A stretch of 64,000 nt of DNA. Origin: Agromyces mediolanus. Lineage in GTDB: Bacteria; Actinomycetota; Actinomycetes; Actinomycetales; Microbacteriaceae. Below, in pieces: positions 20,560-57,614 of the stretch. The notes beneath the pieces are model-generated. The model saw only the letters and a program-made list of their open reading frames with translations, did not search any database and was not told the origin of the DNA. Both the position numbers and the translations under genes were made by a program. The DNA lies in NCBI RefSeq assembly GCF_023715325.1, contig NZ_JAMBNX010000010.1, forward strand, positions 1-64,000, given 5' to 3'. Numbering within the stretch: the first letter of the stretch is position 1; each line of letters opens with the position of its first letter.

Positions 20560-20650
20560 ACAACTCAGGAACATCTGGCGGTTATGCAGTGGCAGAGATT
20601 CCCGCAGCCGCGGAATGATGCGGATGTCGCGCCGGTCGTTCCTGAGTTGT
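20560..20650. repeat. Inverted-repeat element, TTCCTGAGTTGT family, locus 1
   Basis: A perfect 13-base inverted pair, ACAACTCAGGAAC (20560-20572) and GTTCCTGAGTTGT (20638-20650), frames a 65-base centre. The centre contains a further small hairpin (20599-20617, ATTCCCGC / GCGGAAT with one bulge). The left arm shares 24 identical bases (20560-20583) with the reverse complement of 57489-57512. It lies between two minus-strand genes, after the racemase and before the GNAT. It may also work as a terminator, but the same arms recur at 57.3-57.6 kb between divergent genes, so a repeated element is the better description. Confidence 0.8.
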
Positions 20651-20679
20651 GTGAGACGGGGCGGGGCGCGCGGGGCGGC

Positions 20680-21894
20680 TCAGCGCAGCAGCAGGGGCGG
20701 GGCGCTCGCCCAGGCCTGCACGAGCTCCTCGCGCACCGCGACACCGGTGCCGGGGCCGGCGGGCACGGCGAGCTGGCCGCGATGCTCGCCCGTGCCGAGG
20801 ACGAAGGGCTCCGTGAGGTCCTCGGCGTAGTAGCGGTCGGATGCCGAGGTGTCGCCAGGCAGCAGGAAGCCGGGCAGCGCCGCGAGCGCGACGTTCGCCG
20901 CGCGGCCGAGGCCGGTCTCGAGCATGCCGCCGCACCACACGGGCACCTCGAGCGCCAGGCACGCCTCGTGCACCCGCAGCGACTCGAGGTAGCCGCCCAT
21001 CCGGCCCGGCTTGATGTTCACGATGCTCGTCGCGCCGCGCTCGATCGCGTCGAGCGCCGTCGTGCGGTCGAGGATGGACTCGTCGAGGCAGACCGGGGTG
21101 TCGCAGGCGGCGGCGAGCTGCACGTGGCTCGCCAGGTCCTCCTCCGCGAAGGGCTGCTCGATGAGCAGCAGACCGAAACGGTCGAGCTCCGCGAGGAGCG
21201 GGATGTCGGCCTGACGGTAGGCGGTGTTCGCGTCGACCTGCAGGAGTCCCGCGGGGCCGAGGAGCTCGCGCACCGCGCCGACCGGCACGAGGTCCCAGCC
21301 CGGCTTGATCTTCAGCTTGATGCGGCGATAGCCCTGCTCGACGTACCCGGCCACCTCGTCGAGGAGCTCCTCGAGCGTCGGCGCGATGCCGACGGAGACC
21401 CCGCAGTCGACCCAGTCGCGCACGGCGCCGAAGCACTCGGCCATCGAGCGGCCCTGGGCGCGGAGCTCGGCGTCGAGCACCGCCGCCTCGAGTGCCGCCT
21501 TCGCCATCCGATGCCCGGACACGACGGCGAGCGCGGGACCCACGGCGGCCGCGGCGGGCACCGAGGCGATCGCCGACGCGGCGCCGCCGCCGACCGGCTG
21601 CGGTCCGTCGTCCGGCTCGTGCGGGCCGCGGCCAGCGCCGGCCAGGAGGGCGGGGCCCAGGTAGTGCTCGATGACCGCGGCGGCCCCGTCGACGTACTCC
21701 GAGGAGTAGAACGGCTCGCGTCCGGCGACGCACTCGGCCCAGCCGTCGCCGGCCTCGGTGCGCACCCGCACGAGCAGGGCCTCGCGCACCGTCTCGCGCC
21801 CGAAGGACGTCTCGAACGGGCGCACGAGCGGCACCTCGATGCGGTGCAGCTCGATCGCCTCGAGCCGCGCGGGCACGGTCGTCTGCTCGGTCAT
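20680..21894 (-). CDS. o-Succinylbenzoate synthase / N-succinylamino acid racemase (enolase superfamily)
   Basis: A 404-residue muconate-lactonizing-subgroup enolase. The acid/base lysine pair is in RRIKLKIKPGWD and the metal ligands are in LQVDANTAY, LLLIEQPFAEEDL and CLDESILDRT. The second catalytic lysine is in NIKPGRMGGYLES, followed by WCGGMLETGLGRAANVALAA. This is the MenC2/NAAAR family. Linkage by an ATGA overlap to a GNAT of the type paired with N-succinylamino acid racemases favours the racemase role over menaquinone synthesis; no other men gene is near. A low-complexity insertion (about residues 90-115, Pro/Gly/Ala-rich) is unusual. Confidence 0.88.
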   Translation of the reverse strand: MTEQTTVPARLEAIELHRIEVPLVRPFETSFGRETVREALLVRVRTEAGDGWAECVAGREPFYSSEYVDGAAAVIEHYLGPALLAGAGRGPHEPDDGPQPVGGGAASAIASVPAAAAVGPALAVVSGHRMAKAALEAAVLDAELRAQGRSMAECFGAVRDWVDCGVSVGIAPTLEELLDEVAGYVEQGYRRIKLKIKPGWDLVPVGAVRELLGPAGLLQVDANTAYRQADIPLLAELDRFGLLLIEQPFAEEDLASHVQLAAACDTPVCLDESILDRTTALDAIERGATSIVNIKPGRMGGYLESLRVHEACLALEVPVWCGGMLETGLGRAANVALAALPGFLLPGDTSASDRYYAEDLTEPFVLGTGEHRGQLAVPAGPGTGVAVREELVQAWASAPPLLLR

Positions 21895-22721
21895 GGGGCC
21901 TCCCGGTCGGGGTCGTCCTCGGTGAACACGTAGTCGCCCGCCGCATCGAGCTCGGGCCGCGCGCCGGCACGGGCCATCTCCGTGAACGCGACGACGGAGG
22001 CGGCCCGGAGCGCAGCGGCCTCGGCCGGGGCCTCCCGGCGGAGCGCCTCGTAGTCGGGGACGAGCGCGAAGCCTCCGTCGCCGCGCCACGCGGGCGCCGG
22101 CTCCCCCGCGAGCGCTCGGTGCACGCGCGGCGAGTCGAGGCGCCAGCGCACCTCGAAGCGGTCGCTGCGGTCGCTGCCGGAGATCTCGTCGCCGAGCACG
22201 CCGTAGAACTCCGGAAGATACCCGGCGACCTCGGCGCCGAGGCGGACGAGGTTCATCCGGGCGTTGCGGCGGATGAGCGGATCGAAGGTCCAGCGGATCT
22301 CGTCGACGCCGTGCGCGAGGCAGAGCTCGCGCTGACGGAGCTTCAGCGCGGCGCCGATGCCGCGCCCCCGTGCGGCCGGCGCGACGGCGTTCATGTGCGA
22401 GTGCAGGTGCACGCCGCCCGCCCAGCCGAGGAAGCCGAGGGTCGCACCGAGCACCTCGCCGGGCGCGGCGAAGGGCGGCGTGCCCGAGGCATCCACTCCG
22501 CCGTCGTCGTCGGGCACGGCGACGAGCACCGTGCCGCTTGCGTGGGCGAGGGCCCGGATCGTCGAGTCGTCGAGGCCGCGTCCTTCTCCCCAGGTCGCGT
22601 CGAAGCGGGCGAGGACGGCGCCGACCTCCGCGGCGGCGGCGGGGCGGGTGTGGATGCCGCTGCGCGCGTCGACGGCGTCGGCGAGTCGGCGGGCCTCCTG
22701 CGCGCCGTCGGGCTGGGTCAT
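21891..22721 (-). CDS. GNAT family acyltransferase, N-succinyltransferase type
   Basis: A 276-residue GNAT. The acyl-CoA loop is VAPAARGRGIGAALKLRQRE. It is followed by the distinctive IRWTFDPLIRRNARMNLVRL, then GYLPEFYGVLGDEISGSDRS and DRFEVRWRLDS. That tail (W-FDPL, N-R-N, YG, SDRF-V-W) is the hallmark of the GNATs encoded beside N-succinylamino acid racemases. There the GNAT succinylates D-amino acids from succinyl-CoA so the racemase can convert them to L forms. It overlaps the racemase start as ATGA. The N-terminal start is the only ATG; no strong ribosome site is seen. Confidence 0.82.
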   Translation of the reverse strand: MTQPDGAQEARRLADAVDARSGIHTRPAAAAEVGAVLARFDATWGEGRGLDDSTIRALAHASGTVLVAVPDDDGGVDASGTPPFAAPGEVLGATLGFLGWAGGVHLHSHMNAVAPAARGRGIGAALKLRQRELCLAHGVDEIRWTFDPLIRRNARMNLVRLGAEVAGYLPEFYGVLGDEISGSDRSDRFEVRWRLDSPRVHRALAGEPAPAWRGDGGFALVPDYEALRREAPAEAAALRAASVVAFTEMARAGARPELDAAGDYVFTEDDPDREAP

Positions 22722-22772
22722 GCTTCGACGCTAGCTGCTCGCGGGCCCGGTCGTCGACGGCGACGCGGGAGC

Positions 22773-22798
22773 GGGCGCCGCGCGAGTGCGCGGCGCCC
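22773..22798 (-). terminator. Terminator of the urate-degradation operon
   Basis: GGGCGCCGCGC (22773-22783), loop GAGT, GCGCGGCGCCC (22788-22798): a perfect 11-bp GC stem with a four-base loop, 17 bases past the uricase stop codon. There is no U tract, as is common in high-GC Actinobacteria. Confidence 0.8.
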
Positions 22799-22815
22799 GT
22801 CCTGCGTCCGGCCCG

Positions 22816-23766
22816 TCAGCAGAACGCGCCGACGCTCTCCCATGCGCCGGGCGCGGGCACCAGGCCCTCGCGCGTGACCGTCGCCTCGATGAGCCCGTAG
22901 GAGCGATCGGAGGCGTAGAAGACCTCGTTCGGGTTGTCGAGGCCGAACGGCGCGAGGTCGACGACGAAGTGGTGCTTGTTCGGCATGGAGAAGCGGATCT
23001 CGGCGATCTCCGGATGCCGCTCGAGCGCGGCCTGCCCCATCTCGAACAGCGTCGTCTGCAGCGCCGCCGAGTAGTGCTCGGTGAACGCCTCGAGGAGGAT
23101 GGCCTTCACGCTGTCGTACGTCGCGTTGTAGTCGGGCTCGGCACCCGGCCGGTAGCGCCAGCGCGTCGCGACGCTCGTGGCGAGGATGCGGTCGGTCGTC
23201 TCCTGCAGGGTCGTGTAGCGGTCCTTCGGGTAGCCGACGAAGCCCGACTGGGTCGTCTTCAGCACGACGAGGTCCTTCAGGCCGGCGATGACGTGACGCT
23301 CGTCGCCGTCGGCGACGACCGCGGCGGTGCGCACCTCCTGGCCCGAGCGGACGAACGCGTGGTCGTGCTCCTCCCCGTGGGCGAGGATGCGCTCCCAGGC
23401 GTAGCTCTCGGCGAGCCAGCGGCCGCCGGTGACCCAGTCGAAGGAACCGGTGAAGTGGTCGGCGAGGCGCAGCAGGAACGCCTCGGGCGAGCCGACGCCG
23501 TCGCGTGCGAAGGCGAAGATGGTGTTCTTCTGGGTGTCGGTCGCGACGATGTGCGAGTTGTCGCCCGCGAGATGCGCCCCGGCGAAGTCGCCGCGCAGCT
23601 GCGAGGTGACGTTCAGGTCCTCGATCTCGTGGCGGTCGGTGTCACGGGTCACCTTCACGACGCGCACCTCGGCCTTGCCGTACTGGTTCGGGCCGAGCAC
23701 GATGCCGCCGGTGTCGCCGGCCGGGGTGGTGGTGGTCTCGCTCGCGGTGGTCAGGATGTCGGTCAT
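22816..23766 (-). CDS. pucL: Urate oxidase (factor-independent uricase)
   Basis: A 316-residue cofactor-free uricase that oxidises urate with O2 to 5-hydroxyisourate and H2O2. The two T-fold repeats are complete. Visible landmarks are YGKAEVRVVKVTRD, IVATDTQKNTIFAFA (catalytic Thr), DLVVLKTTQSGFVGYPKDRY (purine-binding Phe region), SMPNKHHFVVDL (catalytic His) and FYASDRSYGLIEATV. The length is normal. It is the last gene of uraD-hiuH-uricase, three bases after hiuH. The H2O2 made here may explain the nearby peroxiredoxin. Confidence 0.97.
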   Translation of the reverse strand: MTDILTTASETTTTPAGDTGGIVLGPNQYGKAEVRVVKVTRDTDRHEIEDLNVTSQLRGDFAGAHLAGDNSHIVATDTQKNTIFAFARDGVGSPEAFLLRLADHFTGSFDWVTGGRWLAESYAWERILAHGEEHDHAFVRSGQEVRTAAVVADGDERHVIAGLKDLVVLKTTQSGFVGYPKDRYTTLQETTDRILATSVATRWRYRPGAEPDYNATYDSVKAILLEAFTEHYSAALQTTLFEMGQAALERHPEIAEIRFSMPNKHHFVVDLAPFGLDNPNEVFYASDRSYGLIEATVTREGLVPAPGAWESVGAFC

Positions 23767-23769
23767 GAG

Positions 23770-24111
23770 CTAGCTTCCTCGGTAGGTCGAATAGGCGAAT
23801 GGGCTGAGCAGCAACGGCACGTGGTAGTGCCGGCCGTCGTCGGCGACGGTGAAGCCGATCAGCACCTCGGGGTAGAAGGTGTCGGTGCCGGAGGCGGCGA
23901 AGTATGCCCCGGTGTCGAAGCGCAGGCGGTACTCGCCGCCCGGCACCCGCTCGGGGCCGAGCTGCTTCGCGCGGCCGTCGGCGTCGGTCGTGCCGCTCGC
24001 GACGGCCTCCCAGCCCTCGGTGGTGCGGCGCGAGAGCTCGACGCCGATGCCCGGCGCCGGGACGCCGCGCTGCGCGTCGAGCACGTGCGTGGTGATCTGT
24101 GAAACGGTCAT
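23770..24111 (-). CDS. hiuH: 5-Hydroxyisourate hydrolase (transthyretin-like)
   Basis: A 113-residue protein that hydrolyses 5-hydroxyisourate to OHCU, the second step of urate breakdown. The transthyretin-like fold marks are the start SQITTHVLDAQRGVPAPGI (catalytic His), an Arg in the YRLRFDTGAYF region, FYPEVLIGF, HYHVPLLLSPFAYSTY and the family-defining C-terminal YRGS. A GGAGGG site lies eleven bases before the ATG. The ATG overlaps the stop of a 19-codon frame that bridges it to uraD. Confidence 0.97.
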   Translation of the reverse strand: MTVSQITTHVLDAQRGVPAPGIGVELSRRTTEGWEAVASGTTDADGRAKQLGPERVPGGEYRLRFDTGAYFAASGTDTFYPEVLIGFTVADDGRHYHVPLLLSPFAYSTYRGS

Positions 24112-24167
24112 GGCAGGGTTCCCTCCGGCGGGCTCGGCTCGTGCGTCTTCGGGTGCGGCTCGGTCAT
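24108..24167 (-). CDS. 19-codon linker frame between uraD and hiuH
   Basis: An ATG overlapping the uraD stop (ATGA) opens a frame MTEPHPKTHEPSPPEGTLP whose own stop overlaps the hiuH ATG (ATGA). It thus bridges the 52-base gap exactly. It may serve translational coupling of hiuH, or be chance in GC-rich DNA. The peptide is Pro/His/Glu-rich with no family resemblance. Part of it contains the hiuH ribosome site. Confidence 0.3.
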   Translation of the reverse strand: MTEPHPKTHEPSPPEGTLP

Positions 24168-24661
24168 GCGGTCACCGTCCCTTCCAGTCGGAGGACGGCG
24201 ATCTCGCGCAGCTGCGTCGCGACGATCTCGTCCTCCTCGGCGGCGTCGTGGCCGAGCCGCTCGGTCAGGGCGGCGAGGATCTCCCCCGCACTGCGCCCGG
24301 CCGCGCGGATGAGGAATACCCGGCCGAAGCGCTCCTCGTAGGCCCGGTTGCCCGCGGCGAGCCGCTCGGCGAGCTCGGCGTCGGCGGGATCGACCCCCGC
24401 CTGCTCCGAGCGCGACAGGGTCGCCTCGCGGCCGGCGCCCGCGGCCCGTTCGCCGATCCGCGGATGGTGGCCGAGCGCCCGCTCGACCTCCTCGGCCGTG
24501 AACGGCGATGCGGCGCGGCCCGCCTGGGCCACGAGCTCGGCGACGGAGGCGTAGGGCCGCCCGTCGGCGAGCTCGTCGCACCATCTCGGCACGTCGATGC
24601 ATGGTCGGAGGAGCTCGATCGCCTCCCGGCGGTCGGCCCCATTGAACTGTTCAAGCTTCAT
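24164..24661 (-). CDS. uraD: OHCU decarboxylase
   Basis: A 165-residue protein that decarboxylates 2-oxo-4-hydroxy-4-carboxy-5-ureidoimidazoline to S-allantoin, the third step of urate catabolism. The N-terminal catalytic region includes RPCIDVPRWCDEL, followed by the active-site GHHPRIGE (catalytic His), LSRSEQAGVDPAD and the C-terminal helix LREIAVLRLEGTVTA. The ATG at 24661 has an AGGAAG site about ten bases upstream; an in-frame ATG at 24691 is an alternative. It is the first gene of its operon, with operator-like palindromes just upstream. Confidence 0.95.
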   Translation of the reverse strand: MKLEQFNGADRREAIELLRPCIDVPRWCDELADGRPYASVAELVAQAGRAASPFTAEEVERALGHHPRIGERAAGAGREATLSRSEQAGVDPADAELAERLAAGNRAYEERFGRVFLIRAAGRSAGEILAALTERLGHDAAEEDEIVATQLREIAVLRLEGTVTA

Positions 24662-24698
24662 CGCTTGATTCGCTTCCTGGTCTGCTGGCATCCACGGT

Positions 24699-24734
24699 GT
24701 ACGGAATACGAAAGCTGGCTTTCATATCGTGGAA
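24699..24734. promoter_or_regulatory. Operator-like palindromes upstream of uraD
   Basis: GTACGGAATACGAAA (24699-24713) and TTTCATATCGTGGAA (24720-24734) each match 7 of 10 positions of the TTCCG-N5-CGGAA pattern seen across the cluster, and their centres are exactly 21 bp apart. An overlapping second symmetry, TACGAAAGC-TG-GCTTTCATA (24707-24726), has 8 of 9 paired arm positions. The match is weak singly; spacing and position before the uricase operon are what support it. Confidence 0.45.
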
Positions 24735-24832
24735 CTGTTATTTCAGCATGCGACAATGTTAGCAAGCGGATGCCGCGTCGGCAATGGCTGCGACGCCGTC
24801 GGCGCAGGGTCGCCGACGCGGCATCCGCCGTC

Positions 24833-25309
24833 TCAGACCGCCAGCCGCTCGCGGAGGCGCGCCACGTGCCCCACCGGGTCGACGTTGTACTCCACGCTCG
24901 CCACGAGCCCACCGGGGTCGACGACCACGGTGGAGCGGATGACGCCGTCGAAGGTACGGCCGGCGACGGTCTTCTGCCCCCAGGCGCCCCAGGCGCGCGC
25001 GGTCTCCGCCCCCTCGTCGGAGAGCAGCGGGAAGCTCAGCTGCTCGGCGTCGGCGAACTCGGCGAGCCGGGCGACGGGGTCCGGCGAGATGCCGAGCACG
25101 ACGTAGCCGGCCCCCTGCAACGAGGCCAGGTTGTCGCGGAAGTCGCACGCCTCGGTCGTGCAGCCCGGCGTGAACGCCGCCGGGTAGAAGTACACGATGA
25201 CGGGACTGCCGCGCAGCCCGGCGAGGGTGCGCACGGTGCCGGTGGCATCGGGCAGGGCGAAGTCGGGGGCCTCGCGGCCGGGCTCGAGCTCGTCGGATGA
25301 GGCGATCAT
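24833..25309 (-). CDS. bcp: Thioredoxin-dependent peroxiredoxin, BCP type
   Basis: A 158-residue peroxiredoxin that reduces H2O2 and organic peroxides. The peroxidatic and resolving cysteines are in TPGCTTEACDFRD, preceded by VIVYFYPAAF and followed by VLGISPDPVARLAEF and FPLLSDEG. Length and motif order match BCP/PrxQ. It stands alone on the minus strand between the glyoxylate operon and the urate operon. Both uricase and xanthine oxidation can make H2O2, so a protective role in purine breakdown is plausible but inferred from position only. Confidence 0.95.
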   Translation of the reverse strand: MIASSDELEPGREAPDFALPDATGTVRTLAGLRGSPVIVYFYPAAFTPGCTTEACDFRDNLASLQGAGYVVLGISPDPVARLAEFADAEQLSFPLLSDEGAETARAWGAWGQKTVAGRTFDGVIRSTVVVDPGGLVASVEYNVDPVGHVARLRERLAV

Positions 25310-25396
25310 GTCGGTGCTCCTGTCGTGGTCGTACGGGGCTCGGGCCGGGGCCTGGCGGAGGGCCTGGCATGGTGGAGGTCCGAGCCTGGCGGAGGC

Positions 25397-25422
25397 GGGG
25401 CCGGGGCGGCGGCCCCGGCCCC
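25397..25422 (-). terminator. Terminator of the glyoxylate/allantoinase operon
   Basis: GGGGCCGGGGC (25397-25407), loop GGCG, GCCCCGGCCCC (25412-25422): a perfect 11-bp stem, 12 bases after the allantoinase stop codon on the minus strand. It matches the style of the terminator after uricase. Confidence 0.78.
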
Positions 25423-25434
25423 ATCGGCGGCCGG

Positions 25435-27978
25435 CTACTCGTCGTTCCCCACCCGGAGCAGCCGACCCTGCGCGAGCCCGCGGTCGATCTCCGCACCCGC
25501 GAGATACGCGGTGCGGACGACCCCGGTGAGCTCGCGCCCGTCATAGGGGGTGACCGGGTGGCGGTGCTCGAGGGCACCCGCCTCCACGGTGAAGTGCGCG
25601 TCGGGGGCGAACACGGCGAAGTCCGCGGCGCCGCCGACCTGGATGCGACCTTTGCCGCGCAGCCCGGCCCGATCGGCCGGCCGGGACGACATCCACTCGA
25701 CGACGCGCTCGAGCGGGATGCCCCGGCGGCGCGCCTCGCTCCAGACGAGCGGCAGGCCGAGCTGCAGCGAGGCGATCCCGCCCCACGCCTGCTCGAAGTC
25801 GCCGTCGCCCGCGTACTTCAGCTCGGGCGTCGCCGGCGAGTGGTCGGAGACGATGAAGTCGATCGTGCCGTCGACGAGCCCCTGCCAGAGGGCGTCGCGG
25901 TTCGCCTCGCCGCGGATCGGCGGGCAGCACTTGTACGCCGTCGCCCCGGCCGGCACGGTCTCGGCGACGAGGGTCAGGTAGTGCGGGCAGGTCTCGACGG
26001 TGAGGTCGACCCCGGCCGCCTTGGCCGCACGGATCTGCGGGAGCGAGTCGGCGCTGCTGAGGTGCAGCACGTGCGCGCGGGCGCCCGTCTTCGCCGCGCG
26101 GGCGATGACCTCGGCGATCGCGGCGTCCTCGGCCTCGTGCGGGCGGGAGGCGAGGAAGTCCACGTACTCGCGCCCGCCGCGGTGCGGGGCGGTGTCGATG
26201 AGGTGCGCGTCCTCGGCGTGCACGAGGAGGAGCGAGCCGCGCCCGGCGATGACCGCCATGGCCTGCTCCATCTCCTCGGGGGTGACCTGCGGGAACTCGT
26301 CGACGCCCGAGTGCAGCAGGAAGCACTTGAAGCCGAACACGCCCTCGTCGACGAGCGGCTCGAGCTCGGCCAGATTGCCCGGCACGACGCCGCCCCAGAA
26401 GCCGACGTCGACGACGACCTGGCCGGCTGCGACCGCGCGCTTCTCCTCGAGCGCCGCGACCGACACGGTCGGCGGGATGCTGTTCAACGGCATGTCGACG
26501 ATCGTCGTGACCCCGCCCGCGGCGGCGGCCCGCGTCGCGGAGGCGAAGCCCTCCCACTCGGTGCGGCCCGGCTCGTTCACGTGCACGTGGGTGTCGACGA
26601 GGCCCGGCAGCAGCACCTCGCCCGGGCCGAGCTCGACCAGCCTGGCGCCCGTGAGTCCCGCCCCGAGCGGCGAGATCTGCACGATCCGGCCGGCCCGGAC
26701 GCCGATCTCGGCGGCCCGTTCGATCGGCGCACCGCCGTCGCCAGCGAGCAGGGCCCGCTCGGCGCGCAGCACGAGGTCGAAGACGGGGGCGGCCGGGGCC
26801 GCGGTGGCGGTGGCGGTAGCGGTGGCGGCCGGGGCGGCGGCGCCGGTGGTGAGCTCGGTCACGAGGTCCTCCGAGAGTCGGGTGAGCAGGTCTCCGGCGT
26901 TCGCGATCGAGACGGCCGGATCGGGTTCGAGTTCGGCGAGGGAACGCACCGAGGCGAACCCGGAGGCGGCGAGCGCGGCGGCGTCGAGCTCGCTGCGCCC
27001 GCAGACGGCGTGGACCGGGATGCCGGCACGACGCGCGGCGCGCGCCACCCCGAGCGGGGTCTTGCCCATGAGGCTCTGCGCGTCGAGGCTGCCCTCCCCC
27101 GTGATCACGAGGTCGGCCCCGACGAGCCGGTCGTCGAGGCCGGTGAGCTCCAGCACGACGTCGATGCCGGGGCGGCGATTCGCACCGAGCACCGCGAGCG
27201 CGGCGAAGCCGACGCCTCCGGCGGCCCCGGCTCCGGGAGCCTCGGCCGCCTCGCGGGCCGGCCGGGCGATGGCCGCATCGTGCCGCGAGAGCACCTCGAC
27301 GAAGCGGGCCAGCCCGGCATCGAGGGCGGCGATGCCCGCCGCGTCGGCGCCCTTCTGCGCGGCGAAGACCGCCGCCGCGCCGTGCGGGCCGAGCAGCGGA
27401 TTGTCGACGTCGCTCGCGAGCACGAACTCGGCCGCCGCGAGCCGCGGGTCGAGCCCGCCGAGCTCGACGCGGTCGAGCCCGGCGAGCGCGGCGCCGCCCT
27501 CGGGGAGGTCCCGTCCCGAGGCGTCGACGAGGCGCGCTCCGAGCCCGCGGAGGAGCCCGGCCCCACCGTCGGTCGATGCGCTGCCGCCGATCGCGAGCAC
27601 GATGCGCGTCGCCCCGGCGTCGAGCGCGGCGGCGATCAGCCGCCCCGTGCCGAGGCTCGTCGCGCGCCCGGCATCCCGCTCGCCTGCAGCGAGCAGCTCG
27701 AGGCCCGAAGCGCGGGCGAGCTCGACGACCGCCTCCTCGCCGCGCACCCCGAACTCGGCGTCGAGCTCCGCGCCGAGCGGTCCCGGCACGCGAGCGCTCC
27801 GGGCGGCGAAGCCCGCGGCGAGGGCGGCGTCGAGCGTGCCCTCACCGCCGTCGGCGACCGGCACCTCGACGAGTTCGATCCCGGGGTCGGCCCGGCGCGC
27901 CCCCTCGGCGACCCGCCGGGCCACCTCCGGGGCGGACAGGGATCCCTTGAACTTGTCGGGGGCGATCACGACGCGCAT
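25435..27978 (-). CDS. glxK-allB: Glycerate kinase-allantoinase fusion
   Basis: A continuous 847-residue frame. Residues 1 to about 372 are a GlxK-type glycerate kinase (RVVIAPDKFKGSLSAPEVAR, ADGGEGTLDA, IGGSASTDGGAGLLRGLGAR, ITGEGSLDAQSLMGKTPLGV). Residues from about 400 are a full allantoinase: metal site PGLVDTHVHVNEPGRTEWEG, carboxylated Lys in GFKCFLLHSG, HAEDAHL, HLSSADS, SDHSP. An Ala/Thr linker joins them. Allantoinase opens allantoin to allantoate; the kinase phosphorylates glycerate made from glyoxylate. Inside the frame a GGAGG (26868-26872) lies five bases before an in-frame GTG (26862), so a free 475-residue allantoinase could also be made. The ATG at 27978 is two bases after gcl. 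Confidence 0.9.
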   Translation of the reverse strand: MRVVIAPDKFKGSLSAPEVARRVAEGARRADPGIELVEVPVADGGEGTLDAALAAGFAARSARVPGPLGAELDAEFGVRGEEAVVELARASGLELLAAGERDAGRATSLGTGRLIAAALDAGATRIVLAIGGSASTDGGAGLLRGLGARLVDASGRDLPEGGAALAGLDRVELGGLDPRLAAAEFVLASDVDNPLLGPHGAAAVFAAQKGADAAGIAALDAGLARFVEVLSRHDAAIARPAREAAEAPGAGAAGGVGFAALAVLGANRRPGIDVVLELTGLDDRLVGADLVITGEGSLDAQSLMGKTPLGVARAARRAGIPVHAVCGRSELDAAALAASGFASVRSLAELEPDPAVSIANAGDLLTRLSEDLVTELTTGAAAPAATATATATAAPAAPVFDLVLRAERALLAGDGGAPIERAAEIGVRAGRIVQISPLGAGLTGARLVELGPGEVLLPGLVDTHVHVNEPGRTEWEGFASATRAAAAGGVTTIVDMPLNSIPPTVSVAALEEKRAVAAGQVVVDVGFWGGVVPGNLAELEPLVDEGVFGFKCFLLHSGVDEFPQVTPEEMEQAMAVIAGRGSLLLVHAEDAHLIDTAPHRGGREYVDFLASRPHEAEDAAIAEVIARAAKTGARAHVLHLSSADSLPQIRAAKAAGVDLTVETCPHYLTLVAETVPAGATAYKCCPPIRGEANRDALWQGLVDGTIDFIVSDHSPATPELKYAGDGDFEQAWGGIASLQLGLPLVWSEARRRGIPLERVVEWMSSRPADRAGLRGKGRIQVGGAADFAVFAPDAHFTVEAGALEHRHPVTPYDGRELTGVVRTAYLAGAEIDRGLAQGRLLRVGNDE

Positions 27979-27980
27979 GC

Positions 27981-29774
<1,794 letters not shown>

Positions 29775-29838
29775 GGGAGTGCTCCTTCCGGAGACGGTGG
29801 AGGAAGAGGAGGAGGAAGTGGGGTGGCTCGTGCCCGCG

Positions 29839-31614: not shown

Positions 31615-31638
31615 CGTCGATGGCCCTTCGCGCTACTT

Positions 31639-46161: not shown

Positions 46162-46168
46162 CAACGCT

Positions 46169-49408: not shown

Positions 49409-49458
49409 CGGCGCATCCTCGCGGCGGTGTTACGGTAGACGCCCACGAGGGGGTGACG

Positions 49459-50550: not shown

Positions 50551-50576
50551 GCCGCACCCGGCCGGGGGTCAGCGCC

Positions 50577-51077
50577 TCACAGCCCGACCCACTCCGAGAC
50601 GCCGTCGTCGAAGTGCTGCCGCTTCCAGATCGGCACCTCCTGCTTCACGAGCTCGACGAGGCGCTCGCACGCGTCGAAGGCCTCCGCCCGGTGCCCCGCT
50701 CCGGCCGCCGCGACGAGGGCGACGTCGCCGATCCCGAGGTCGCCGACGCGGTGGGCGGCGGCGACCGCGAAGCCGGTCTCCTCGCGGATGCGTCGGACGC
50801 AGTCCGCGAGGAATCGCTGGGCGTCGGGGTGGCCGCGGTAGTCGAGGGCGCGCACGGGCCGGCCGCCGTCGTGGTCGCGCACGACGCCGTGGAACACGAC
50901 GACGGCGCCCGAGGCCTCGCTCTCGACCGCCCGGCGGACCGCGGCCTCGTCGAGGGGCGTCTCGGAGACGACGGCGTAGGGCTCGGTGGGCTCGGGCTCG
51001 GTGGGCTCGGGCTCGGTGGGCTCCGGCTCGGTGGGCTCCGGATCCGGCATCGCTGGCTCGCTTTCGCTCGGGGTCAT
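50577..51077 (-). CDS. moaE: Molybdopterin synthase catalytic subunit MoaE
   Basis: A 166-residue protein; residues from about 34 form the MoaE domain (VVVFHGVVRDHDGGRPVRAL, AAAHRVGDLGIGDVALVAAA, the catalytic Lys in VELVKQEVPIWKRQ). With MoaD it adds two sulfurs to precursor Z. The first 33 residues are an unusual extension with four PEPTE repeats. The ATG at 51077 overlaps the moeZ stop (ATGA), which supports this start; an internal ATG at residue 10 would keep the repeats too. Confidence 0.94.
   Translation of the reverse strand: MTPSESEPAMPDPEPTEPEPTEPEPTEPEPTEPYAVVSETPLDEAAVRRAVESEASGAVVVFHGVVRDHDGGRPVRALDYRGHPDAQRFLADCVRRIREETGFAVAAAHRVGDLGIGDVALVAAAGAGHRAEAFDACERLVELVKQEVPIWKRQHFDDGVSEWVGL
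50982..51041. repeat. Four tandem 15-bp repeats encoding PEPTE units in moaE
   Basis: Residues 13-32 of MoaE are four successive PEPTE units; the DNA unit is close to GGGCTCGGTGGGCTC on the plus strand, with minor variants. The repeats lengthen a disordered acidic N-terminus ahead of the conserved domain. Unit length is a multiple of three, so copy number can vary in frame. Confidence 0.85.
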
Positions 51078-52225: not shown

Positions 52226-52249
52226 TCGGTCAGTGTACCCGCGCGACTT

Positions 52250-52285
52250 TTCCGCTTGGCGGATGCCGGATTCCGCCGTTCGGGT
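52250..52285. promoter_or_regulatory. Operator-like palindromes between moeZ and moaD
   Basis: TTCCG-CTTGG-CGGAT (52250-52264, 9 of 10 matches) and TTCCG-CCGTT-CGGGT (52271-52285, 8 of 10) are spaced exactly 21 bp in the 72-base divergent promoter. The first covers the moeZ -35 region; the second abuts the moaD -10 TAGCAT (52285-52290). Confidence 0.55.
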
Positions 52286-52297
52286 AGCATCGAGCCC

Positions 52298-52543
52298 ATG
52301 ACCCTCGTGACCGTGCGCTACTTCGCGGCCGCGGCAGACGCCGCCGGCCGGGAGGAGGAGCGGATCGAGCTCGGCGACGCCACCGTCGGCGGGCTCCGCG
52401 AGCTGCTCGCCGAGCGTTACGGCGCCGACATGCAGCGGGTCTTGCAGAACGGCTCCTTCCTCGTCGACGGCACCGTGCGCCGCGACCCCGCGACCCCGCT
52501 CGGCGCCGCGGTCGACCTGCTGCCGCCCTTCGCCGGCGGCTGA
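52298..52543 (+). CDS. moaD: Molybdopterin synthase sulfur carrier MoaD
   Basis: An 81-residue ubiquitin-like protein ending in the required Gly-Gly (DLLPPFAGG). The fold marks are VTVRYFAAAADAAGREEERI, the central VGGLRELLAERYG and a conserved NG before FLVDG. MoeZ adenylates and thiocarboxylates its C-terminus; MoaE then uses the sulfur. A -10-like TAGCAT ends seven bases before the ATG, so the mRNA is leaderless. It is divergent from moeZ and upstream of moeA. Confidence 0.95.
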   Translation: MTLVTVRYFAAAADAAGREEERIELGDATVGGLRELLAERYGADMQRVLQNGSFLVDGTVRRDPATPLGAAVDLLPPFAGG

Positions 52544-52657
52544 GCGCACCGGGCGCGGCCGGGGGCCGGGGTCGGGAGCCGGGCGCGGCCGGGGGCGGGT
52601 GCGGCCGGGAGCCGAGCGCACAGGGCGTCCGAAGCATTCGCCACCTAGGCTGAACGC

Positions 52658-53935
52658 ATGCGCAGCTACGCCGAACACCGTCGTGCGGTCACCGAGCTGC
52701 TCGCCCCGCTCGAGTCCCGGCTCGGCGCCGAGGAGGCGGGCCTCGCCGCCGGCGACGCGCTCGGTCGCGTGCTCGCCGCCGACGTCGACTGCCCGATCGA
52801 CCTGCCCGGCTTCGACAACTCGCAGATGGACGGCTACGCGCTCCGCGCCGCCGAACTCGCCGGCGCCGCCCCGGGGTCGCCCGTGCGTCTGCCGATCGGA
52901 CCGACCAGCGCCGCGGGCGACCACGTCTTCGAGCTCGCCCCGGGCACGGCCTCGCCGGTCATGACCGGCGCACCGATCCCGCGCGGCGCCGATGCGGTGG
53001 TGCCCATCGAGTCCGCCGATCCGCCCGCGTTCATCGGCATCTCCGGCGCCCGCCACGACTCGCCCGTGCAGTCCACCGTCGGATTCGCCGCCCCGGTCGA
53101 GCCCGGGGCGTTCGTGCGTCGCACCGGCAGCGACGTCGCCGCGGGCGCGCTGCTCCTCGCCGCCGGAACTCGGCTCGGCCCCGCCCAGCTCGGCGCCCTC
53201 GCGGCCGCCGGCGTGACGACCGTGCGCGTGCGGCGGCGGCTGCGGGTGCTGCTCGTCTCCACCGGGCACGAGCTCCGGCCCCCGGCCGCAGAGCTGCGGC
53301 CCGGGCAGATCCACGATGCCAACTCGACGATGCTGAGCGCCGCGCTCCGCGGCTGCGGTGCCGACGTGGTCGAGGCCGTCTCCCCCGACGACGCCGACTC
53401 GCTGCGCCAGGCGATCGCCTCCGCCGCCGATCGAGTCGATCTCGTCGTCACGAGCGGCGGCGTGAGCGAAGGCGCCTTCGAAGTCGTGCGGGAGGCGCTC
53501 GGCCCGCTCGGTGTCGCCTTCGAGAAGGTCGCGATCCAGCCGGGCGGCCCGCAGGGGCTGGGGCTCGCGCGGTTCGGCGACCCGCATGGCGCGGAGGCCG
53601 CCGCCGGCGTCCCCGTGGTCGCGTTCCCCGGCAACCCGGTGAGCGCGCTCGTCTCCTTCGAGCTGTTCCTCCGACCCGTGCTGCGTCGACTCGAGGGGCT
53701 CGCGCCCGACCGGCATCGGGCGACCCTCCCCCTCGCCCACGAGGTCGTCTCACCGCTCGCGAAGCACCAGGTCCGCCGCGGCGTCATCGACGGCGACGGC
53801 GCCGTCGAGGTCGGCGCTCCGAGCTCTCACCTGCTGCACGCGTACGCGCAGGCGACGGTGCTCGTGCACCTGCCCGTCGGCGTCGACCGGCTCCCGGCCG
53901 GCGCCCCCGTCGACGTCTGGAGGATCGATGACTGA
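52658..53935 (+). CDS. moeA: Molybdopterin molybdenumtransferase MoeA
   Basis: A 425-residue protein that inserts molybdate into MPT-AMP. Domain marks are LPGFDNSQMDGYALRAAEL, IMTGAPIPRGADAVVPIE-like SPVMTGAPIPRGADAVVPIE, VLLVSTGHELRPPAAELRPG with GQIHDANSTML, DLVVTSGGVSEGAFEVVREA and VVAFPGNPVSALVSFELFLR. A -10-like TAGGCT ends six bases before the ATG, another leaderless start. The 114-base gap after moaD is filled by degenerate GC-rich repeats (GGAGCCGGGCGCGGCCGGGG-like, 52555-52620). It overlaps moaC by eight bases. Confidence 0.95.
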   Translation: MRSYAEHRRAVTELLAPLESRLGAEEAGLAAGDALGRVLAADVDCPIDLPGFDNSQMDGYALRAAELAGAAPGSPVRLPIGPTSAAGDHVFELAPGTASPVMTGAPIPRGADAVVPIESADPPAFIGISGARHDSPVQSTVGFAAPVEPGAFVRRTGSDVAAGALLLAAGTRLGPAQLGALAAAGVTTVRVRRRLRVLLVSTGHELRPPAAELRPGQIHDANSTMLSAALRGCGADVVEAVSPDDADSLRQAIASAADRVDLVVTSGGVSEGAFEVVREALGPLGVAFEKVAIQPGGPQGLGLARFGDPHGAEAAAGVPVVAFPGNPVSALVSFELFLRPVLRRLEGLAPDRHRATLPLAHEVVSPLAKHQVRRGVIDGDGAVEVGAPSSHLLHAYAQATVLVHLPVGVDRLPAGAPVDVWRIDD

Positions 53936-54413
53936 CGAGCCCGATTCCGGCCTCACCCACCTGCGCGCCGACGGCTCGGCGCACATGGTCGACGTGACCG
54001 ACAAGGCGGTCACCCGGCGCACGGCGAGCGCGCAGGCCGTGCTCGTCACCCGCGCGGACGTCGTGGCCCGCATCACCGACGGCAGCCTGCCGAAGGGCGA
54101 GGCGCTCGGCACGGCGCGCATCGCCGGCATCCTGGCCGCGAAGCAGACCTCCGCGCTCATCCCGCTCTGCCATCCGCTCCCCCTCACCAAGCTCGCCGTG
54201 GACTTCGAGCCGGCCGACGACCGGGTGCGGGTCGTCGCGACCGCGACGACGAACGGCGTGACCGGCGTCGAGATGGAAGCGCTCACCGCCGCGAGCGTCG
54301 CCGCCCTCACCCTCTACGACATGATCAAGGCCGTCGACCACGAGGCCGTCATCACCGACGTCTGCGTGCTCGCGAAGTCGGGCGGCAAGCGCGGCGAGTG
54401 GAGCCGCGGGTGA
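53928..54413 (+). CDS. moaC: Cyclic pyranopterin monophosphate synthase MoaC
   Basis: A 161-residue protein that converts the MoaA product to cyclic pyranopterin monophosphate. Family marks are GSAHMVDVTDKAVTRRTASA, AGILAAKQTSALIPLCHPLP, VTGVEMEALTAASVAALTLY with DMIKAVD and VLAKSGGKRGEW. All are intact. A GGAGG site lies in the last codons of moeA, five bases before the ATG. The stop overlaps the next gene as GTGA. Confidence 0.97.
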   Translation: MTDEPDSGLTHLRADGSAHMVDVTDKAVTRRTASAQAVLVTRADVVARITDGSLPKGEALGTARIAGILAAKQTSALIPLCHPLPLTKLAVDFEPADDRVRVVATATTNGVTGVEMEALTAASVAALTLYDMIKAVDHEAVITDVCVLAKSGGKRGEWSRG

Positions 54414-54907
54414 GCGCCGGCAGCCGGCATGGCGCGCACGCGGTCGTCATCGTCTCCTCGACCCGGGCCGCGGCCGGCGTCTACGAGGACCGCACGGGCC
54501 CCGTGATCGCGGAGTGGCTGCGCGAGCGCGGCTTCGCCGTCGAGGGGCCGGTGGTCGCCGCCGACGGGCCGGACTTCGCGATCGCGCTCGACACCGCGCT
54601 CGCGACGAGCCCCGCCGTCGTCGTGTCAACGGGCGGCACCGGGATCGCGCCGGGCGACACCGTGCCCGAGGCGACCGCCGCCGTCATCGACCGCGAGCTG
54701 CCGGGCTTCGCCGAGGAACTGCGTCGTCGCGGCGCCGCGACGACGCCGACCGCCCTGCTGAGTCGCGGCCGGGCCGGCATCGCCTCCGGGGCGCTCGTCG
54801 TCAACCTGCCCGGCTCGTCCGGCGGCGTGCGCGACGGACTCGGCGTGCTCGACGAGGTGCTCGACCACGTGCTCGACCAGCTCTCGGGCGGGGATCACCC
54901 GGCCTGA
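54410..54907 (+). CDS. mog: Molybdopterin adenylyltransferase MogA/MoaB
   Basis: A 165-residue protein that adenylylates molybdopterin before metal insertion. Marks are VVIVSSTRAAAGVYEDRTGP, the molybdopterin-binding VVVSTGGTGIAPGDTVPEAT and VVNLPGSSGGVRDGLGVLDE. It is the last gene of the moeA-moaC-mog operon, starting with GTG overlapping moaC. Its 3' end overlaps the converging PAP2 gene by 13 bases. Confidence 0.94.
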   Translation: MSAGSRHGAHAVVIVSSTRAAAGVYEDRTGPVIAEWLRERGFAVEGPVVAADGPDFAIALDTALATSPAVVVSTGGTGIAPGDTVPEATAAVIDRELPGFAEELRRRGAATTPTALLSRGRAGIASGALVVNLPGSSGGVRDGLGVLDEVLDHVLDQLSGGDHPA

Positions 54908-55647
54908 TCCGGTGCCGGGTCGGCCGCGGCATCCCGTCGCCGATGCCAGCGCTGCCGCTCCCGCTCGAGCGGACGCGCGAGGATCGCCCACACCACGAGC
55001 GCGACCCCGGCGCCGACGAGGGCTCCGGCGATCGTGTCGGTGAGCCAGTGCACCCCGAGGTACGTGCGGGTGAACGCCATCAGCACGGTGTACGCGACCC
55101 CGAGCACCCACACCCAGACGCGCGGCGCGATGATGCCGACGACCACGGCGATCGTGGCGGCGTTCGCCACATGCCCCGAGGGGAATGAACCGAAGTCGCT
55201 CGTGACCAGCATGTCCTCCGGACGTGCCCGACCGAACAGCTGCTTCAGCAGTTGCACGACGCCCGCGCTCGCGGCGGAGGCGAGCAGGAAGAACGCGGCG
55301 CCCCACGGACGGCGGCAGACGAGCAGGACGACGGCGCCGCCGAGGGGCACCACGAACACGCCGATCGCGCCGCCACCGAGCCGGTTCATCGTGAACGCGA
55401 CGGCGTCGCCGAACGCGCCGCGCAGCTCGATGACCTCGCTCGCCCAGCCCTCGTCGACGCCGACGATGCCGTTGCGGATCGCGATCAGTCCGCCGAGGAG
55501 CACCGCCACGAGCAGCACGCCGAGGCCCGCGGCGACGATCACCCGGCGGTGCAGCCGTCGTGCGGCCGGGGCATCCGTGCCGTCCGCCGCAGCCGGCCGG
55601 GCCGAGTGCGCCGAACGGTCCGGATGGGTCGAGTCGTCGTGGGCCAT
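54895..55647 (-). CDS. PAP2 family phosphatase, membrane-bound
   Basis: A 250-residue membrane protein with about five helices. The three phosphatase motifs are present: KQLFGRARP, FPSGH and the TRTYLGVHWLTD segment (Arg, His nucleophile, Asp). Such enzymes dephosphorylate lipid phosphates such as undecaprenyl pyrophosphate or phosphatidic acid at the outer membrane face. The hydrophilic N-terminus (about 32 residues) and basic C-terminus face the cytoplasm. It is unrelated to the Moco genes it converges on. Confidence 0.92.
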   Translation of the reverse strand: MAHDDSTHPDRSAHSARPAAADGTDAPAARRLHRRVIVAAGLGVLLVAVLLGGLIAIRNGIVGVDEGWASEVIELRGAFGDAVAFTMNRLGGGAIGVFVVPLGGAVVLLVCRRPWGAAFFLLASAASAGVVQLLKQLFGRARPEDMLVTSDFGSFPSGHVANAATIAVVVGIIAPRVWVWVLGVAYTVLMAFTRTYLGVHWLTDTIAGALVGAGVALVVWAILARPLERERQRWHRRRDAAADPAPDQAG

Positions 55648-55670
55648 GCGCCCACGCTAGCCGCCCGCCC

Positions 55671-56954
55671 TCAGTCGCCGAGCGGCGGCACGCTGCGCGG
55701 GCGCACGAGCGCCCAGAGCGCCACGATCGCGATCACCGCCGCCGCGGTCATCACGATCGCCATCGGCACCGCGCTGCCGACGCCCATGAGGCCGATCAGC
55801 GGCGAGATGAGGCCCGCGAGACCGAAGTTCAGCGCTCCGAGGAGCGACGCCGCCGTGCCCGCCTCGTTGCCGTGCGAGGCGAGCGCGAGGATCTGCACCG
55901 CGGGGAACGAGAAGCCGCACGCCATGATGAACAGGAACAGCGGCACGATCGTGCCCCAGAGCCCGGCGCCGGTGAGGTCGAGCACGGCGATCGCGACCGC
56001 CGAGCCGAGCAGGACGAGGGTCGTGACCGCGAGGATCCACTGCGGCTGCACCCGCCCGCGCATGAGCCGCGAGCTCGTCTGCACGCCGATGATGATGCCG
56101 ACGGAGTTCACGCCGAAGAGCAGGCCGTACTGCTGCGCCGTGAAGCCGTACACCTCCTGGAACAGGAACGACGAGGTGGAGAGGTAGCCGAAGAGTCCGG
56201 TGAACACCATGCCGCCGACGAGGGCGGCGCCGAGGTACACCCGGTCGCGGAACAGCGCCCGGTACCGCTCGCGCATGGTGGAGTGGCCCGCGGCGTGCCG
56301 GCGCTGCTTCGGCAGCGTCTCGACGATGAGGAACGCGACGCAGACGACGACCACGACGCCGTAGACCGCGAGCACCCAGAAGATGCCGCGCCAGTCCATC
56401 ACCTGCAGGAGCTGCGAGCCGATGACGGGAGCGAGCACCGGCGCGAGCCCGTTCACGAGCGCCAGGCGGGACAGCATGCGCACGAGCGGCTTGCCGCCGA
56501 AGAGGTCGCGCACCATCGCCATCGCGACGACGCCGCCGGCGGCCGCGCCGAAGCCCTGCAGCAAGCGGAAGACGGCGAGCCAGGTGAGGTCGGGGGCGAA
56601 CGCCGCCCCGACCGAGGCCGCGATGTGCAGGAGCGTCGACAGAATCAGCGGCAGCCGCCGGCCGACCTTGTCGCTCCACGGCCCGACGATGAGCTGTCCG
56701 AACCCGAAGCCGATCATCGTGCCCGTGAGCGTCAGCTGCACCGCGGCGGCGCTCACGCCGAGCTCGGCCTGCAGCACCGGGAACGCCGGCAGGTAGAGGT
56801 CGACGGTGAACGGCCCGAGCGCCGTGAGCGCCCCGAGCACGAGCACGTAGACGAGCCGCTGACGCCCGCTCAACCGGTCGCCGGGGTGCGCGTGGGCGGC
56901 GGACACCGCGCCGGTGTCGTCGGGGCGGATGATCGGGATGGAGGCGGTGGACAT
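55671..56954 (-). CDS. MFS exporter, Bcr/CflA family
   Basis: A 427-residue, twelve-helix drug exporter of the DHA1/Bcr-CflA type. Marks are YVLVLGALTALGPFTVDLYL with PAFP, GQLIVGPWSDKVGRRLPLI and RLLQGFGAAAGGVVAMAMVR, then APVLAPVIGSQLL (motif C). It likely confers resistance to compounds such as bicyclomycin or chloramphenicol, judged by family only. The ATG at 56954 is the start of the conserved part. An open frame continues far upstream but is translated repeat DNA. Confidence 0.92.
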   Translation of the reverse strand: MSTASIPIIRPDDTGAVSAAHAHPGDRLSGRQRLVYVLVLGALTALGPFTVDLYLPAFPVLQAELGVSAAAVQLTLTGTMIGFGFGQLIVGPWSDKVGRRLPLILSTLLHIAASVGAAFAPDLTWLAVFRLLQGFGAAAGGVVAMAMVRDLFGGKPLVRMLSRLALVNGLAPVLAPVIGSQLLQVMDWRGIFWVLAVYGVVVVVCVAFLIVETLPKQRRHAAGHSTMRERYRALFRDRVYLGAALVGGMVFTGLFGYLSTSSFLFQEVYGFTAQQYGLLFGVNSVGIIIGVQTSSRLMRGRVQPQWILAVTTLVLLGSAVAIAVLDLTGAGLWGTIVPLFLFIMACGFSFPAVQILALASHGNEAGTAASLLGALNFGLAGLISPLIGLMGVGSAVPMAIVMTAAAVIAIVALWALVRPRSVPPLGD

Positions 56955-56964
56955 GGGCTCCCTG

Positions 56965-57130
56965 GGCGGATGCGGCGGCTGGGCGGTGCCGGCTCGGCGG
57001 GCCGGGTCGGCGGGGCGGGCTGGGCAGTGCGGGCTGGGCGGTGCGGGTCGGCGGGCGGGGCTGGGGGGTGCCGGCCCGGCGGGCTGGCTCGGCGGGCGTG
57101 CTCGGCGGGCTGCCGGGGCCCGTCGTGCAC
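56965..57130. repeat. Degenerate G-rich repeats upstream of the Bcr/CflA gene
   Basis: Short imperfect units of the types GGGCTGGGCGGTGC and GGCTCGGCGGGC recur throughout, with almost no A. The plus strand carries many runs of three to six G, giving potential for G-quadruplex or slipped structures. It lies just before the exporter ATG, so on the minus strand it is a C-rich leader. No gene is credible here. Confidence 0.7.
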
Positions 57131-57320
57131 GGAATCGTGCGCTCGGATCGAGTGCGCGGATGGCGCGGTTCGAGTGCCCGCGCCCGGGGAGCCGATGGCG
57201 CCCGCGGAGTCGAATCGATTCGAGAACGTCCATGGTAGCGCATCTCCCGCAGCGGGGCGAGCAATGCGCGCCGCGGCATCCGCCCTCCCCTCCCGCCCCG
57301 CCCGTCCCCCTTCTCCTCAC

Positions 57321-57446
57321 CTCGCAGAACTCAGGAACTTCCCCGGCCGCCCCGCCCGTCCCCCTTCCCCGCCCCTCGCAGAACTCAGGAACACCCTCGG
57401 CCACCCCTGCCCGCCCCCTCCCCGCCCTCTCCCACAACTCAGGAAC
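57321..57446 (-). repeat. Left arm of the TTCCTGAGTTGT array: three copies, 54-bp period
   Basis: GAACTCAGGAAC occurs at 57327-57338 and 57381-57392, and CAACTCAGGAAC at 57435-57446, exactly 54 bases apart each time. The units start with CTCGCAG or CTCCCAC and are filled by C/T-rich sequence (CCCCGCCC tracts). They are inverted relative to the right arm. The third copy reads ACAACTCAGGAAC, the same 13 bases as the left arm of the 20.6-kb element. Confidence 0.88.
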
Positions 57447-57488
57447 CGCCCGCCGCCGACCAGGCCTTTCGGCATCCGTGTCGCCCAG

Positions 57489-57614
57489 AACCGCCAGATG
57501 TTCCTGAGTTGTCGGAGGGGGCGGGTGGGGGCGTTCCTGAGTTGTGGGAGGGAGGCAGGTGGGGGCGTTCCTGAGTTGTGGGAGGGAGGCGGGCGGGGGC
57601 GTTCCTGAGTTCGG
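57489..57614 (+). repeat. Right arm of the TTCCTGAGTTGT array: four copies, 33-34-bp period
   Basis: GTTCCTGAGTTGT begins at 57500, 57533 and 57567, and the variant GTTCCTGAGTTCGG at 57601 (steps of 33, 34 and 34). The units are separated by G-rich filler such as GGGAGGGAGGCGGGCGGGGG. Bases 57489-57512 are identical over 24 positions to the reverse complement of 20560-20583. Left and right arms could pair into a large cruciform. The array lies in a 717-base gap between divergent genes with no other content recognised. Confidence 0.88.

Follow-up and report, generated by a model that had tools for sequence, protein, structure and literature searches.

The stretch analysed here, called the window below, is 64 kb of contig 1 of an Agromyces genome (G000; 89 contigs, 4.04 Mb), and it carries two loci of an inverted-repeat element that is dispersed through the genome. 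On balance we favour the view that this is a family of REPIN-like palindromic elements and one of several such families, each paired with its own nuclease that maintains or copies the palindromes. We infer that the nuclease mobilises the elements. An enzyme that copies them is the best reading of the data, and an enzyme that is merely restrained by them is its main rival.

The typical copy in G000 is an inverted pair 79 bp apart and 91 bp overall, with near-invariant arms, near-fixed spacing and a drifting interior. In the window the family is represented as follows.

20560..20650, plus strand: complete element C1a, 91 bp; conserved ACATCTGGCGGTTATG adjoins the left arm and sets the orientation
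20560..20572, minus strand: left arm of C1a, ACAACTCAGGAAC, checked in the sequence
20638..20650, plus strand: right arm of C1a, GTTCCTGAGTTGT, checked in the sequence
57326..57614, no strand: nested array, one central element inside three left-hand and four right-hand arms
57434..57512, minus strand: central element of the array, 79 bp; conserved AACCGCCAGAT adjoins the right arm
57326..57337, minus strand: outer left arm copy of the array, AGAACTCAGGAA
57380..57391, minus strand: second left arm copy, AGAACTCAGGAA
57534..57545, plus strand: second right arm copy
57568..57579, plus strand: third right arm copy
57602..57613, plus strand: outer right arm copy, variant TTCCTGAGTTCG

The description given in the earlier note, which was made from the letters of the window, holds in all its parts. 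Facing 13-bp arms (ACAACTCAGGAAC/GTTCCTGAGTTGT) are present at 20560-20572/20638-20650 and at 57434-57446/57500-57512, and the identical 24-mer ACAACTCAGGAACATCTGGCGGTT lies at both loci. The left-hand copies of the array stand at exact 54-bp steps (starts 57326, 57380 and 57434), the outer two being variants (TTCCTGAGTTCT), and the right-hand copies follow at 33-34 bp (starts 57501, 57534, 57568 and 57602; steps 33, 34 and 34), with the variant TTCCTGAGTTCG outermost. When up to two mismatches are allowed, the 12-mer has 10 matches in the window against 0.57 expected from shuffles.

In the whole G000 genome the exact 12-mer TTCCTGAGTTGT occurs 46 times (22 forward, 24 reverse), and its reversed control does not occur; TTCCTGAGTTNT with one mismatch gives 76 matches against 7 for the control. 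The matches fall into about 31 places, two of them in the window, and the family is thus not a local duplication, an outcome that the earlier note had proposed to check by searching the rest of the genome for the 13-mer. A REP/MITE-like unit (repetitive extragenic palindromic sequence or miniature inverted-repeat transposable element), one of its candidate roles, gains support from the dispersed, intergenic position of the palindromes and from their near-invariant arms. Because conserved ACATSTGSCNGTTATG adjoins only one arm, each copy has an orientation. In the alignment, which comprises 30 copies and omits the single arm C55d, the flanks of many copies appear by eye to extend the palindrome rather than to repeat directly.

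A 21-base motif, with up to two mismatches, is found in two of 60 Agromyces species, with 24 copies in G000 and 25 in Agromyces soli KACC 16215 (G338; NZ_CP094533.1). By our own count 29 of the 31 G000 places are matched by an orthologous copy in A. soli (the exceptions are C55b and the single arm C55d), and the flanks of orthologous copies are about 90% identical. Both window loci are among the shared places: the A. soli ortholog of C1a (locus L109) shows a single arm change, ACAATTCAGG, and the place orthologous to the array (G338 59565-59850) also has three left and four right arms. Divergence was counted on 26 of 30 ortholog alignments, four being dropped as special copies or because the alignment did not cross the element. 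Changed sites amount to 9 of 622 in the arms (1.4%), 246 of 1707 in the interior (14.4%) and 193 of 1249 in the flanks, and gap columns number 3, 30 and 559, respectively; interior length is the same in 23 of the 26 pairs and differs by 1 in the other 3. With so few changes in arms and length and so many in the interior, it is the arms and their spacing that have been kept, not the interior letters. Further nested arm arrays are present in A. soli (G338 C1:706282-706541, 708264-708482 and 1296026-1296200); these hold several left and right arms, and the arms multiply outward.

The genome that lies nearest to A. soli, G330, is free of the element. Over a 61-kb alignment the identity is 93.5% between G330 and A. 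soli, 91.7% between G000 and G330 and 90.4% between G000 and G338. With other Agromyces as outgroup, 112 sites group G330 with G338 and 57 and 40 support the alternatives, in a count that excludes locus L140 (a repeat of L110); individual loci vary, L111 giving 13 sites for G330 with G338 and 13 and 14 for the others. No copy was found in G330 by the 21-base motif search, the decamer AACTCAGGAA is absent from the 799,530 bases read, and the element is missing at all 10 orthologous sites compared. The C1a site has no element and the place of the array is an empty site. The empty sites are not base-exact, and 2 of the 10 retain a stretch resembling a decayed arm. As G330 is the nearest relative of A. 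soli and yet element-free, sequence comparison makes it most likely that the elements were lost in the G330 lineage. Agromyces italicus (L272) has at least one 75-bp element with AACTCAGGAA arms. G295 was considered as a further carrier and rejected: its six matches, five of them at 91-bp steps, form a direct tandem repeat with ACAACTCAGGAA and include no inverted pairs. This array (L094, C1:2448700-2449400) has a 91-bp unit that contains ACAACTCAGGAA and ...TCCTGAACCGTCGACC.

Elements in G000 also occur as pairs 0.6-2.6 kb apart around one or two genes (L068, L078, L082, L083, L087 and L089); the genes inside such pairs encode a nuclease, a siderophore-interacting protein, a DNA alkylation repair enzyme and a BadF-type ATPase, and by a hand estimate such close pairing is commoner than expected for 31 copies in 4 Mb. 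Only the reading of these genes brought out the nuclease. An all-against-all BLASTP of open reading frames (ORFs) near elements had shown families, named by eye, that looked common. The gene lies between paired elements outside the window, at G000 C22:145405-146313, and matches the Pfam families REase MTES_1575 (REase, restriction endonuclease) and DUF559; its A. soli counterpart occupies NZ_CP094533.1 3646838-3647746 on the minus strand. When an iterated hidden Markov model (HMM) of the nuclease C-terminus was run against the 11,036 ORFs of the fetched loci, it returned 13 domain rows in 9 ORF records, which represent 7 distinct genes; counted from where the open frame ends, all are within 1-80 bp of an arm, in a selected set of loci, nearly all of them fetched for carrying arms. 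The hosts are G000, A. soli, Microbacterium sp. RH59, M. hydrocarbonoxydans, Plantibacter flavus, Cryobacterium breve and another Microbacteriaceae genus (G080). By eye, elements stand before and after the gene; under a strict test, 6 of the 7 genes have matching palindromes both upstream and downstream. Two more cases with AACTCAGG arms on both sides, in Yonghaparkia and Cryobacterium algoricola (L319, L331), were found through Pfam. Together these cases cover five named Microbacteriaceae genera and that of G080. The HMM found no member in the 8-kb locus L272 of A. italicus.

The seven proteins align over their full length, with an identity to the A. soli protein of 28-32% outside Agromyces and 93% within, and share the invariant residues E201, D228, E238, D240, H245 and D254. 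DUF559 scores above its cut-off for the G000 and A. soli proteins, and MTES_1575 REase below its own. For the N-terminal part, Pfam PF13338 is above cut-off in one of six proteins (L278), just below in L228 and weak in L279, PF17194 is weak in L285, and neither the A. soli protein nor L303 has an AbiEi-type Pfam match; the PADLOC AbiEi profiles reach E <0.001 in all four proteins searched. An AlphaFold2 model built from five sequences (mean predicted local distance difference test score, pLDDT, 74) was compared by Foldseek, and its first six matches include 3hrl and, within the first five, the AbiEi antitoxin 6y8q, I-Bth0305I and Vsr (probability 0.99-1.00). The I-Bth0305I catalytic domain (TMt 0.82) and Vsr have Foldseek E values of 0.0016-0.018, and a profile search of PDB sequences gave 3hrl with E 0.00012. 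The protein is accordingly predicted, from this model, to be an AbiEi-like domain fused to a nuclease of the Vsr/EDxHD fold. Some member of the nuclease family is present in 56 of 60 Agromyces. For the cognate type, G000 and A. soli score 406 bits; none of the other 58 Agromyces exceeds 279, and G330 stands at 142, a value based on the 39 of its 73 first-look candidates that were scored. Judged from sequence, two species appear to have both the elements and the cognate nuclease, and G330 to have neither.

The association extends to other nucleases with palindromes of their own. DUF559 genes (Pfam PF04480) were taken from 30 element-bearing genomes irrespective of arms; 12 of the 30 had any. 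Seven Actinobacteria provided 24 matches, 22 with a locus, which fall into 17 genes of the AbiEi-REase kind and 5 of a second kind, the two being separated only after the flanks had been seen. A looser two-sided test with 8 shared bases was passed by 6 of 94 controls in element-bearing loci (two of them nuclease genes) and by 16 of 146 in G330; eight bases are thus too weak, and at least 10 shared bases were used instead. Of the 17 AbiEi-REase genes, 9 pass this strict test, whereas 13 of 656 control genes do so when the same windows are applied to them; with 14 shared arm bases and short loops allowed, the figures are 5 of 17 and 0 of 656. The arms differ from gene to gene (for example AATCAAGGAGTT, CCTGAATTCAGG and CCGAATTCAGGAGTT). 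In other Agromyces, where the best-scoring gene of each genome was taken, the strict test is passed by 11 of 28; among other genes, drawn from three Agromyces samples, the figure is 11 of 955, and one of these 11 lies between two real elements.

The five second-kind genes all fail the strict test. With short loops permitted, two of them (L341 and L342; Naasia, G381) have matching compact hairpins on both sides, with 23-30-bp arms, a short loop and 14 and 20 shared bases, an arrangement seen in 0 of 656 controls. Since two of five second-kind genes have such hairpins, the rule that a nuclease is flanked by its own palindrome seems, on these sequences, not to be limited to the AbiEi kind.

Were the palindrome beside a nuclease gene the master copy of a family, the same genome should hold dispersed copies of it. 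In 400 kb sampled from G303, the palindrome of the G303 gene forms 9 inverted pairs, of which 7 are not at the gene, and it is found 0 times in the G304 and G330 samples; that of the G304 gene forms 4 pairs in the G304 sample, of which 3 are not at the gene, and none in the other sampled genomes. Elements of several other Agromyces (L381, L382, L384 and G303/G304) share an internal CGTGTCG...CGACACG inverted repeat despite differing arms. On a tree of 52 nucleases, with the four commonest arm classes hand-labelled on 26 rows, arm class tracks the tree, requiring 7 changes against at least 10 (mean 13.8) in 300 label shuffles. The AACTCAGG code is found in several branches of the tree and so recurs.

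More widely, a scan of GTDB genomes for AACTCAGGAA N42-72 TTCCTGAGTT found at least 111 stretches; they come from Microbacteriaceae, from many Verrucomicrobia and from a small number of others. A search of the Microbacteriaceae, as the earlier note had suggested, found the element in 10 of 398 genomes (control 0). Up to 49 pairs are present per genome (metagenome-assembled genome, MAG, nzgw509), followed by 24 (A. soli), 18 and 10; the control gave 0 in 37 genomes. Among 22 actinobacterial species the element length, from decamer to decamer, clusters at 63, 73-76 and 83-87, that is, in steps of about one helical turn. This clustering was equalled in 0 of 5000 uniform draws, in a test with 23 rows for the 22 species (PHSC20C1 stands twice) in which species are not independent and lengths are confined to the scanned range of 62-92. 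Non-actinobacterial lengths are spread (resultant 0.31). In Verrucomicrobia and other non-actinobacterial loci (L189-L296) the AACTCAGG arms are often iterated octamers, of the form ATCTGG(AACTCAGG)nAA ... TT(CCTGAGTT)nCCAGAT.

The protein-binding array, another candidate role in the earlier note, is supported by the near-invariant arms, by the spacing in steps of about one DNA turn and by the copies that flank the gene for a predicted DNA-binding nuclease. Vsr/EDxHD domains cut DNA. In the proposed mechanism the AbiEi-like domain would bind each arm, with two protein molecules sharing one face of the DNA, and the nuclease domain would then cut at the bound element. Repair or copying after the cut might spread or restore the palindrome, slowly, as RAYT (REP-associated tyrosine transposase) is thought to do for REPINs. 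Once the nuclease was lost, the palindromes would go unmaintained and would vanish.

Several observations weigh against this reading. Recent mobility appears low, since 29 of 31 G000 copies are orthologous in A. soli, no target-site duplication was seen in the copies by eye, and no clean recent insertion was found. Although 6y8q is the first structural match, with E of about 0.001, its root-mean-square deviation is large (12 A), and no Foldseek match has E of 0.001 or lower. Many nuclease genes do not pass the strict test on both sides, namely 17 of the 28 from other Agromyces and 8 of the 17 from elsewhere, and several (L378, L380 and L387) show no such palindrome. The second DUF559 kind had to be dropped as a negative control because two of its five genes have flanking hairpins. 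A DUF559 gene adjoins AACTCAGG arms in 3 of the 8 element-bearing Actinobacteria searched with PF04480 (G368, G373 and G382); at the loci fetched from the other five (G362, M. galbinum, with 10 pairs; G364; G367; G379; G381) no DUF559 gene lies beside such arms, and G379 has no DUF559 match at all. The missing cognates might reflect low sensitivity, as Pfam misses members of the family (L303 has no Pfam match). In Verrucomicrobia the same arms form as many as 49 pairs in one genome. Of the 22 non-actinobacterial genomes searched, 17 lack DUF559, and Verrucomicrobia yielded no enzyme: at L190, L212, L234 and L236 the genes enclosed by element pairs look ordinary when their translations are judged by eye.

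Foremost among the other explanations is one that needs no copying by the enzyme, and we consider it rather unlikely: the palindromes would be operators at which the AbiEi-like domain represses its own nuclease, and the dispersed copies would be decoys, tethers or protected 'self' marks, kept since an untied nuclease is harmful. According to PMC7319586, AbiEi of Streptococcus agalactiae binds inverted repeats and autoregulates. The AbiEi fold match, the near-invariant arms and the helical spacing fit such a role, and a copy lies upstream of the nuclease gene at an operator-like position. Repression would, however, leave the downstream copy unexplained, as well as the tens of dispersed copies with fixed spacing and the species whose members of the gene family have few palindromes or none.

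That the copies are transcribed stem-loops at 3' ends, which end or protect mRNAs, were spread by ordinary duplication and are only secondarily near the nuclease, is improbable. Their positions suit it: in a gene context drawn from a simple codon-model gene finder, the neighbours of the 31 copies are convergent in 12 cases, on the same strand in 14 and divergent in 5. Two of the 14 same-strand copies overlap the end of a predicted ORF, and for the other 12 the upstream gene ends 10-95 bp away. Confinement to intergenic sites, which the earlier note had wished to see examined, is essentially the case, with 2 of 31 overlapping an ORF end. REPs are similarly placed, according to PMC3733652, and complete copies fold as hairpins closed by their arms. 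Against this, the interior pairs show no compensatory upkeep, and the orientation among same-strand genes is mixed, with 8 copies oriented with the genes and 6 against and thus no clear preference; nor does it account for the nuclease link, the paralog-specific arms or the joint absence in G330.

Quite improbable is a conventional MITE of a DDE or HUH insertion sequence with these ends. The terminal inverted repeats would suit it, as would the copies with similar interiors in the Verrucomicrobia-type MAG nzgw509; target duplications, as said, were not seen. The one transposase family searched, the Y1_Tnp of RAYT (PF01797), was found in 0 of 10 Agromyces, G000 and G338 included, and in 0 of 13 element-bearing actinobacterial records, among which A. 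soli is counted again. RAYT itself was rejected as the enzyme: PF01797 does occur in other element-bearing genomes (16 of 22), but in none of 30 PF01797 loci does an inverted element lie alongside. A structured non-coding RNA with a three-way junction, also among the roles put forward in the earlier note, is very improbable indeed, for although several single sequences fold in this way, RNAalifold, run on an alignment whose interior is uncertain, retains only the near-invariant outer stem, double compensatory changes inside the element are about as frequent as in shuffles (3 against 2.8 in 18 ungapped ortholog pairs), Rfam gives no match at the element and the orientation is 8 sense to 6 antisense.

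REP/REPIN sequences are defined, in PMC8266576 and PMC3733652, by the RAYT enzyme and by a GTAG or CGTC tetranucleotide at the foot of the hairpin. The elements described here resemble REP, BIME (bacterial interspersed mosaic element) and REPIN sequences with RAYT ('REPtrons', TnpA-REP) in being short intergenic palindromes of two inverted units and a linker, situated near 3' ends, and in their tens of copies, flanked enzyme gene, enzyme-specific repeat families and vertical persistence. They differ in that the enzyme is an AbiEi-like/Vsr-EDxHD fusion and not a Y1 HUH transposase, in the near-fixed spacing of the arms and in the tag, no GTAG or CGTC being seen by eye in the arms ACAACTCAGGAAC/GTTCCTGAGTTGT or the adjoining conserved motif. 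TIRYT genes (tyrosine transposases with terminal inverted repeats) are likewise bordered on both sides by their own repeat, in some cases one from a dispersed family, according to PMC3733652, whereas here the enzyme is no tyrosine transposase and each side has a complete palindrome.

The AbiEi-like N-terminal domain and the inverted-repeat DNA recall the AbiE type IV toxin-antitoxin system. In contrast to AbiE, there is a single two-domain protein with a nuclease, the repeat copies are dispersed, and AbiEii is not among the three neighbours scanned in G000, which encode a pyridine nucleotide-disulphide oxidoreductase, a permease and a phosphorylase. The C-terminal domain is like EDxHD homing endonucleases and Vsr in its predicted fold and in its invariant acidic and histidine residues, from which nuclease activity is predicted; unlike these, it is tied to genome-dispersed palindromes, and no intron was seen at the loci read. 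MTES_1575 has been described as a Vsr-type REase in a protein with a HEPN domain, in passages of PMC3710099 that make no mention of palindromes. Elsewhere in the window, the minus strand of positions 1-60 holds the end of a 16S rRNA gene at the contig edge.

Among the matches listed, no description of a link between such a nuclease and palindromes was found in the open-access PMC literature. If the copying is real, these elements would form a new class; as it stands, they are a variant of enzyme-linked interspersed palindromes, since copying is something we infer. The chances seem evenly balanced that this is a new class of genomic replicator, in which palindromes are copied or maintained by AbiEi-EDxHD and other DUF559-type nucleases independently of RAYT/REPIN. 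Each lineage would have its own arm code, often with a CAGGA-like core; sites would stay fixed for long and be lost genome-wide with the enzyme, and the code would recur in Verrucomicrobia, with the enzyme there still to be found.

The familiar example of palindromes served by a dedicated, domesticated enzyme in bacteria is RAYT/REPIN. If a second enzyme family, unrelated to it, proved to be arranged in the same way, this lifestyle would be shown to have evolved more than once, and DUF559/MTES_1575-type proteins, listed by Pfam as of unknown function, would gain a testable role. Because close species with and without the nuclease and its elements exist, the question of what keeps such repeats in genomes would become testable, and the matched pairs of nuclease and arm allow a comparative decoding of DNA recognition.

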